Position numbers and translations under genes: made by a program. From Bacteroidaceae bacterium (GTDB lineage Bacteria > Bacteroidota > Bacteroidia > Bacteroidales > Bacteroidaceae): DNA of 60,055 nucleotides. Numbering within the stretch: the stretch's first letter is position 1; each line of letters starts with the position of its first letter. The notes below the pieces were generated by a model. It was given only the letters and a program-made list of their open reading frames with translations, was not told the DNA's origin and did no database searches. This document shows, one piece after another, positions 4,887-43,712 of the stretch. The stretch is taken from NCBI GenBank assembly GCA_017615245.1, contig JAGAAL010000001.1, forward strand, positions 1 through 60,055. Direction: 5' to 3'.

Positions 4887-5070
4887 TTGTTCTTTGTTTA
4901 AGTTATTCAATTAACATCACGAAAAATCACTCCCTTACCGTCCTTCCTTTCGGAATTAGCGGCGGAGATTAGTTTTATTTGAGTGATTCACAGACCACTG
5001 AACCGGCCAAAGTTCACGCTATCTACACACCCTTTTGAGAGAACTAATTACTCTCTCTGATAATAATCGG
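4887..5070 (-). promoter_or_regulatory. Structured 5' leader of the rplM operon (candidate L13/S9 autoregulatory RNA)
   Basis: From the predicted start of transcription near 5070 to the L13 ATG there are about 180 nt with clear secondary structure on the minus strand. A first hairpin GAGAGA/TCTCTC lies at plus coordinates 5037-5057. An 8-bp closing stem pairs 4925-4932 with 4981-4988 (AATCACTC/GAGTGATT). Inside it is a TTCC-GAAA-GGAA hairpin with a GNRA-type tetraloop (4944-4955). The leader is far longer than the 20-30 nt leaders of neighbouring genes. Ribosomal-protein operons often carry such autogenous sites. Regulation by L13 or S9 is inference. Confidence 0.5.
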
Positions 5071-43087: not shown

Positions 43088-43223
43088 CCATTACTCCCAC
43101 TTTGTTTGTACATTAAATTGTTTTTCTCCGTAGTTATGGCGTTTTCTCCCCGCCTGGGGAACAATTTTTACCTAACTACGCCGTAAATTCCGCTGAATTC
43201 TTACGGTTATATTGTTAGGGAGC

Positions 43224-43258
43224 AGCCCCCTCAAATCTCCCCCTCAAGGGGAGACTTC
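43224..43258. repeat. G/C palindromic repeat element
   Basis: TCTCCCC (43236-43242), CTCAA, GGGGAGA (43248-43254) is a perfect 7-bp stem preceded by AGCCCCCTCAAA. It is similar in shape to the elements at 25989-26019 and 31298-31323. Confidence 0.65.
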
Positions 43259-43504
43259 CTGTACCCTCCCTTAATGGAAAATTTTGTTACCCCTAGGGGC
43301 TGCAAAATCACGCTTGATTTTCATGGTGACAAATGTTGTGCAAGCCGAGCGCAGAGAAAGGGCCCGTTTCTATGCCAAGGCGCTGCCAACATTGCAGGAC
43401 CATCTTAAATGGTACTGCAAAGATACAACATTGAGAGTGCGGTCTACGATTTTTTACCAACTTTTTTTCGAGAAAATGAAAAAAATCCGTAGTCATTTTC
43501 AGTC

Positions 43505-43637
43505 ATAGTCAAAGTAGTCAAACTCGTTTTCAGAATCCAAAAAACTGCCACTATAGAATATAATAATAAATTTATTATTATATTCTATAGTGAGTCCAAG
43601 TCCATGTTCCAGAATTGAGTTTGACTACTTTGACTAT
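43505..43637. repeat. Nested inverted-repeat element: 21-bp terminal arms around a 44-bp perfect palindrome
   Basis: The outer arms ATAGTCAAAGTAGTCAAACT(C) (43505-43525) and their exact reverse complement (43617-43637) enclose a 44-bp perfect palindrome (43549-43592). The palindrome starts CACTATAGAATATAATAATA and is centred between 43570 and 43571. There is no ORF inside and no obvious target-site duplication. The structure could fold as a long RNA hairpin or extrude as a DNA cruciform. It could be a small non-autonomous mobile element (MITE-like) or a binding or recombination site. Confidence 0.85.
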
Positions 43638-43676
43638 CACATCCTGTCTTTCCCGATGAAATGGGCAGAAATTGGT

Positions 43677-43712
43677 AATTGTTTCAAATGTCTCATGTTT
43701 TTTGAAACAATT
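43677..43712. repeat. 12-bp inverted repeat (hairpin)
   Basis: AATTGTTTCAAA (43677-43688) pairs exactly with TTTGAAACAATT (43701-43712) across 12 nt and is followed by TTT. It may be a terminator for a transcript entering from the left. The arm TTTGAAACAA recurs at 43832-43841. Confidence 0.6.

Follow-up and report, generated by a model that had tools for sequence, protein, structure and literature searches.

A nested palindrome in a Bacteroidaceae genome belongs to a family of elements that share architecture rather than letters and recur upstream of HU-HIG genes

What kind of element is a palindrome nested within inverted repeats, and what might it do for the genes beside it? The question is raised by a structure in the window analyzed here, a stretch of 60,055 nucleotides from a Bacteroidaceae bacterium, for which an earlier note had put forward a MITE-like element, a cruciform or recombinase site, and a stable non-coding RNA. 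The inverted arms and the central AT palindrome described in that note were confirmed (Table 1), the arms being slightly longer than the 21 bp originally given: the exact repeats at 43505-43525 and 43617-43637 lie inside arms of 24 nt, which are complementary at 23 of 24 positions (96%) and separated by 91 nt. The palindrome is composed of 22+22 nt that are 100% complementary, with a spacer of 0. The 139 nt are predicted, with DNA parameters, to fold as a stable hairpin or cruciform (-35.5 kcal/mol for single-stranded DNA versus -7.2, sd 2.3, for 200 dinucleotide shuffles; z = -12).

Table 1. Features of the window element and of the repeated unit to which it belongs (positions in the window)
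Feature	Position	Strand	Remarks
Outer left arm	43502..43525	+	tandem units around GTCAAAGTA
Left spacer, arm to palindrome, 23 nt	43526..43548	.	
Inner palindrome, perfect, 44 bp, AT	43549..43592	.	
Right spacer, 24 nt	43593..43616	.	
Outer right arm	43617..43640	+	inverted copy of the left arm
Whole repeated unit	43103..43637	.	as common to C56; similarity to C4 continues to about 43714
Promoter-like motif ATCGTAGACCGCA-N6-ATGTTGTATCTTTGC	43417..43450	-	reads leftward, away from the palindrome
Leader 3′ of the promoter	43325..43416	-	74% alike to the HU-HIG gene leader in G006 (L080); missing in C4 and C56
Far end of the repeated unit (TGTTTGTACA...)	43103..43217	-	common to C4 and C56; partly in C1 and G003:C201

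A scanner based on the presence of an AT palindrome within inverted arms distinguished one element in the 60-kb window, the 43502-43640 structure, and none in three Markov shuffles of 306 kb. It is unlikely that the palindrome is an assembly artefact, since two further copies are present on other contigs of the same genome and the architecture is also seen in G021 (locus L237), whose genome is a single contig, and in isolate assemblies, e.g. those of Prevotella sp. MA2016 and Xylanibacter ruminicola D31d.

The earlier note had proposed a search for additional copies, and these were found: the genome carries three near-identical elements at unrelated sites. The copies at C4:32895-33051 and C56:72472-72611 are 96% and 94% identical to the window element, respectively, and contain perfect inner palindromes of 50 bp and 48 bp; the C4 copy has one additional unit. 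Exact matches to GTCAAAGTAGTCAAAC were confined to the six arms of these three copies. The unit common to the copies (approximately 540 bp) is larger than the palindromic feature, while about 93 bp (43326-43417) are specific to the window copy and missing from C4 and C56. When the region 43400-43680 of the window was compared with plasmid and phage collections, no match was obtained.

Each of the three copies adjoins a promoter-like motif reading away from the palindrome, and in the window TATCTTTG matches TAnnTTTG, the consensus of the Bacteroidota -7 box. In all three cases the motif is directed towards a convergent gene, which it meets at the 3′ end and which encodes a YgjP-like protein, a GH3 enzyme or a SPOUT methyltransferase of the rlmH type. 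On its right-hand side the window element is adjacent to a gene for a bacterial alpha-2-macroglobulin. A regulatory role restricted to macroglobulin genes finds no support in the GH3 and rlmH-type neighbors of the other two copies, nor in the identity of the recurrent partner of these elements, which is an HU-HIG gene (see below).

Elsewhere in Prevotellaceae the architecture was met again, built from other sequences. A sequence-family search gave matches in 27 of 399 genomes, mostly to the promoter part, and structure scans of the matched loci revealed nested palindromes (NPs), i.e. inverted arms of 6-9-bp tandem units around an AT palindrome, whose arms were unrelated. Under stricter settings, one NP per locus was identified in 18 of 24 loci (the window not counted), versus none in three 306-kb shuffles. 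The arm units include GTCATTA, GTTGCAGT, GTTACAGT, GTGCTACA, GGTCATTT and AGCACAG. Among 40 arms (repeats of the same sequence counted) the best internal period was 6-9 bp, and it equaled 8 bp in 21 of them; the periodicity of 29 arms exceeded the 95% null of letter shuffles. Arms of the same element paired with a mean score of 19.6, compared with 7.9 for arms taken from different copies, and 6.7% of the cross-copy pairs attained the lowest own-pair score.

The scanner is neither fully sensitive nor fully specific. It missed loci L074, L076, L078 and L080, where NPs were recognized by an earlier scan, by eye or with a wider setting, and several of its matches were deemed by eye to be false or different (L307, the downstream ones in L326 and L355, the second in L278, the L076 match of a later scan and the first match in L407). 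As a background, G021 and a G046 contig (picked for holding an NP) were scanned over 400 kb each and yielded only the known HU-linked NP; with looser thresholds the same 800 kb gave five matches instead of one. At these loose thresholds, L189 (G021:C1:40001-60000) was found to contain an AT palindrome of 43 bp, nearly the same as the one in the HU-linked locus L237 and with weaker arms; it is perhaps a decayed relative.

Genes of the HU-HIG family (PF18291), whose products are DNA-packaging proteins of the HU type, were searched directly. The named-genome sample consisted of the best 80 of 544 loci, 62 of which had at least 1 kb of upstream sequence. An NP lies within 1.1 kb upstream of the HU-HIG gene in 29 of the 62 (30 by the scanner, from which the doubtful L307 was dropped), and none was found in 1.17 Mb of shuffled sequence; the figure of 29 is likely a lower bound, because the scanner misses genuine NPs. 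For Xylanibacter or Prevotella ruminicola records with at least 1 kb upstream, the proportion was 7/8. Twelve other genomes, most of them picked for holding NPs, had an NP at 4 of their 30 best HU-HIG loci and at 7 of 20 further, hand-picked ones. In the remaining 33 of the 62 loci the scanner detected no NP, and thus HU-HIG does not need one; these loci include four of Bacteroides/Caecibacteroides (L336, L341, L363, L374) and two of Segatella copri (L312, L350). The cassettes usually comprise a further gene: among 32 NP-HU loci, a candidate small ORF is located 3′ of HU-HIG in 27, in 26 cases with a match to smalltalk (NF033879). In one locus, L080 (G006:C10), genes for HU-HIG, a BT4734/DUF3987 protein and an M15 peptidase surround a single NP. 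Contig ends were more frequent on one side of the sampled genes, 18 of the 80 loci (L297-L376) having less than 1 kb upstream versus 4 of 80 with less than 1 kb downstream; palindromes may break MAG assemblies. A pattern search for HU-HIG relatives in viral contigs returned 48 stretches, of which none was confirmed.

None of the three copies in the genome under study adjoins an HU-HIG gene, and we refer to such copies as solo. This genome contains six HU-HIG matches; the three that were examined (C14:2429, C33, C56) are all NP-free, and one match starts at a contig end. Contigs C1 and C25 start within apparent elements of this type with other arms (by eye).

The distribution of the copies bears on the MITE-like option. 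Both genes flanking the window element are directly adjacent, without the element, in three sister genomes (G006, G007 and G011), and no NP was found 3′ of rlmH in the other readable members of the genus. Judged from the side of the YgjP-like gene, G003 has an NP with different arms (GGTCATTT units) at this gene, while other YgjP loci are at a contig end or have a different neighbor. In a mobile element, the NP would be a structural end that a transposase or recombinase encoded elsewhere recognizes, perhaps in the form of a single-stranded hairpin, the HU-HIG cassettes would be its larger relatives, and the window unit would be an HU-less derivative. The presence of several near-identical HU-HIG cassettes per genome, and the promoter and leader that the solo unit of the window shares with an HU-linked one, agree with such mobility, as do the empty sites and the unrelated locations of the three units. 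We nevertheless consider this explanation unlikely. The window unit is short, non-coding and multi-copy, as expected of a MITE, but its inverted arms are found only at the right end of 43103-43637; the 133-139 bp of the palindromic feature would by themselves have terminal repeats, but the copies share more than that. Nor could target duplications be defined by eye, as the empty sites are too diverged for the insertion junctions to be recognized. A single IS3-like fragment was noticed beside L282 (by eye).

In 32 NP-HU pairs, the distance from the end of the NP to the HU start has a median of 242 nt (range 167-725), and in 31 of them a -7 box is present in this interval on the HU strand. The same box was found in 8/32 cases on the opposite strand and in 2/32 within the 300 nt that lie past the NP as seen from the gene. 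The NPs are therefore placed upstream of the promoter and outside the HU transcript. As a family, the elements place an inverted repeat ahead of HU-family gene promoters; the window copy has the promoter motif and no adjacent HU-HIG gene.

This arrangement speaks against the third option of the earlier note, a non-coding RNA, according to which the NP would be transcribed into a hairpin acting as an sRNA or attenuator. The predicted fold is strong (with DNA parameters) and Rfam searches gave matches to miRNA precursor models, all of them sub-threshold (best 33.4 bits, gathering score 94). However, no Rfam family reached its gathering score on the element, the single match in the window being an L13-Bacteroidia ribosomal protein leader at 4985-5058 (minus strand, 56.5 bits), and a promoter box separates the NP from the gene in nearly every HU-linked case. 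We regard a transcribed hairpin as extremely improbable.

The full promoter motif of the window was found at 27 places in 13 genomes (301 genomes searched), whereas the reversed pattern used as a control gave none. An NP is located upstream at 20 of these places (looser scan), a degenerate NP below the threshold (arm scores 9-10, inner scores 8-20) at five more, and the remaining two are cut by a contig end; every uncut example of the motif that was found therefore has an NP beside it, five of them degenerate. An HU-HIG gene lies within 1.5 kb of 8 of the 27 promoters, which is a lower bound, as six loci have less than 1 kb downstream. A shorter motif, ACCGCA, is present in 13 of the 29 HU loci with an NP and in 2 of the 33 without (Fisher p = 0.0007). 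Since it occurs in only 13 of the 29, NPs must accompany other promoters too, and the motif does not define the whole family.

If the NPs are control sites, are they read by their letters? In G239, three HU-HIG proteins that differ at 3-5 of 157 residues (by eye) are encoded beside NPs with the arm units AGTCATTA, CAGATGG and GGTTACGT, and the proteins of contigs C7 and C2 of G046 are 99% identical, while their arms are different. Among the 115 protein pairs whose identity is 90% or more, 7% have similar arms, and the similarity of proteins and that of their arms show a weak rank correlation (rho 0.13). Unrelated arms beside near-identical proteins speak against HU-HIG as a reader of the arm letters, and this idea was rejected.

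The arms could alternatively serve as iterons or operators for another protein, a Rep or a repressor, that reads them base by base, for example where an element carrying a BT4734/DUF3987 primase has its origin. Inverted tandem units with an AT-rich center do resemble an iteron origin, and BT4734-type genes are located near the NPs of L077 and L080. The mismatch between arms and HU-HIG counts against HU-HIG as the reader and not against other proteins. However, an NP was found within about 5 kb in just one of 39 BT4734 loci, and this one is upstream of an HU-HIG gene. On this linkage of 1/39 the primase-origin idea was rejected, and we consider base-by-base recognition in general to be very unlikely. 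An additional candidate, that the arms are addresses or memories of invading phages, was rejected: of three arms compared with viral contigs, two gave no match and the third (the AGCACAG repeat) matched four stretches, two of them with several tandem matches, which were taken for ordinary repeats.

Changes within alignable arms were counted pairwise (Table 2), because a MAFFT alignment of eight elements misaligned the tandem units.

Table 2. Arm positions unchanged, changed on one side or changed on both sides (compensated changes in parentheses) in pairs of NPs
Pair	Unchanged	One side	Both sides (compensated)
window-G001	18	1	2 (2)
window-G014	15	4	4 (3)
window-C4	23	1	0
window-C56	20	0	0
G001-G014	18	3	1 (0)
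G046 C7-C2	21	2	9 (8)
C2-C3 (G046)	22	1	2 (1)
C2-C18 (G046)	36	0	0
C7-C3 (G046)	20	0	6 (6)
L331-L370	31	1	0
L331-L330	24	6	1 (1)
L334-L354	13	0	0

Alignable arms change largely, though not always, by compensated pairs. Covariation alone is no proof of selection, as template switching between the arms also yields symmetry. The symmetry could then be a mutational by-product, with one arm copied onto the other in a functionless element, and this process would predict symmetric arms with a fast turnover of letters; arms built of tandem units and the extra unit in the C4 copy are in line with it. What it leaves unexplained is the fixed place of NPs upstream of HU-HIG promoters and the coupling of one promoter motif to the NP, so that we find it highly improbable that the element is a by-product only. 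The constant position and the association with HU point to a reason for keeping the shape, and the retention of a folded shape with nearly free letters suggests that the shape itself is recognized.

Of the options listed in the earlier note, a cruciform-type DNA site, named there together with a recombinase site, is the best supported one. We think it rather probable, with considerable reservation, that the HU-HIG/smalltalk cassettes of Prevotellaceae have a DNA control element, of which the window holds a solo copy, and that this element is read by its shape, is able to form a cruciform and controls a promoter when bound by HU-HIG. The element consists of the AT-rich palindrome and inverted tandem-unit arms placed just 5′ of a Bacteroidota-type promoter, and under negative supercoiling it would extrude as a supercoil-sensitive hairpin or cruciform. 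HU-HIG, a protein with the HU fold, would bind this distorted DNA by shape and not by letters and, once bound, would adjust the adjacent promoter, by autoregulation in the cassettes and in trans at solo copies such as that of the window. There, a leftward non-coding or antisense transcript towards the YgjP-like gene would come under HU-HIG control. If only shape matters, the arms would be free to drift or to be re-templated from each other, and so to diverge between copies.

The need for a hairpin alone leaves the tandem units in the arms unexplained. Tentatively, and with more doubt than confidence, one may picture mobile HU-HIG cassettes with a self-diversifying NP, whose arms are rewritten symmetrically and whose identity resides in shape alone, all versions still being recognized by HU-HIG and solo copies spreading as shape-controlled promoters. 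Divergence of the arms would perhaps prevent recombination among the many copies of one genome.

Binding and regulation by HU-HIG are proposed here by analogy with HU proteins, which are described as binding junctions, bulges and forks without sequence specificity (PMC5683647). For PG0121, the HU protein of P. gingivalis, bulges and loops are reported to rank first among its substrates, its own 77-bp inverted repeat is preferred over an unrelated 77-mer, and junction DNA is stabilized (PMC3969353). The preference is modest (Kd of 84 versus 68 nM for homo- and heteroduplex), one section of the paper is headed as non-discriminatory binding, and its authors consider that PG0121 might instead hinder cruciforms by absorbing supercoils (PMC3969353). 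The same paper cites the hupA promoter of E. coli, which is overlapped by a cruciform-capable inverted repeat and for which HU is a negative regulator.

The principle of an HU protein acting with an inverted repeat is thus already known. The repeats of P. gingivalis, which like the NP hosts belongs to Bacteroidota, and of hupA likewise place a cruciform-capable inverted repeat near a promoter together with an HU-type protein (PMC3969353), but they are single loci with one sequence, whereas NPs occur family-wide in many copies with a common architecture and not common letters. Tandem-unit arms, a second, nested palindrome and solo copies are described for NPs alone. The partners also differ, HU-HIG in one case and a classical HU in the other, and binding was demonstrated for PG0121, while the NP case is built from sequence.

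Two repeat families of related bacteria can be set apart by their descriptions. BrickBuilt and 464/PgRS of Porphyromonas gingivalis are likewise non-coding Bacteroidota elements with inverted and tandem repeats, but are described with a 23-nt (or 41-nt) tandem repeat inside and small terminal repeats (PMC4596501), whereas in NPs the inverted arms themselves are built of the tandem units, with the AT palindrome between them. PINSR, a 188-bp intergenic non-coding repeat of Prevotella intermedia/nigrescens, is reported at 177-184 copies per genome with one consensus and no terminal inverted repeats (PMC4755523); NPs are few per genome where examined, variable in sequence and defined by inverted repeats. 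No description of the NP element was found in the titles and abstract openings of the open-licence papers listed by the searches, which does not prove its absence in print. The smalltalk protein and bacterial HU-HIG were each met in one paper, as table entries in the portions available. A sequence-variable, tandem-armed NP tied to HU-HIG/smalltalk cassettes, as delineated here from genomic data, was not met in the literature searched.

Regulatory sites are normally conserved in sequence. NP sites seem to be conserved in shape and position, with letters turning over beside near-identical HU-HIG proteins, and would provide a clean test, set up by nature, of whether proteins of the HU fold recognize shape alone. 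They also suggest a possible role for the HU-HIG proteins of Bacteroidota. Elements of this kind can escape motif and repeat searches based on sequence.

Several other parts of the repeated unit and its surroundings showed features of their own. A short module around TTACCCCTAGGGGCTGCAAAA (43268-43310 in the window) is present, palindrome-free, at other intergenic sites (L066, L067, L166, L177). To the right of the element, CGATGAAATGGG... (43650-43672) appears by eye to be a dispersed motif, also found in C4, G014 and G007, the last of which has the motif and no palindrome at this site. The leader may form a hairpin (by eye), with the closing stem AATGTTG/CAACATT in the window, AAGTCTG/CAGACTT in G003 and AATGCGG/CCGCATT in G006; these compensated stem changes are suggestive of a structured RNA. 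The far-end module is located 3′ of a gene in all three copies of the genome (by eye) and contains a stem, also compensated between copies by eye: GTAGTTA/TAACTAC versus GTAGTGA/TCACTAC.
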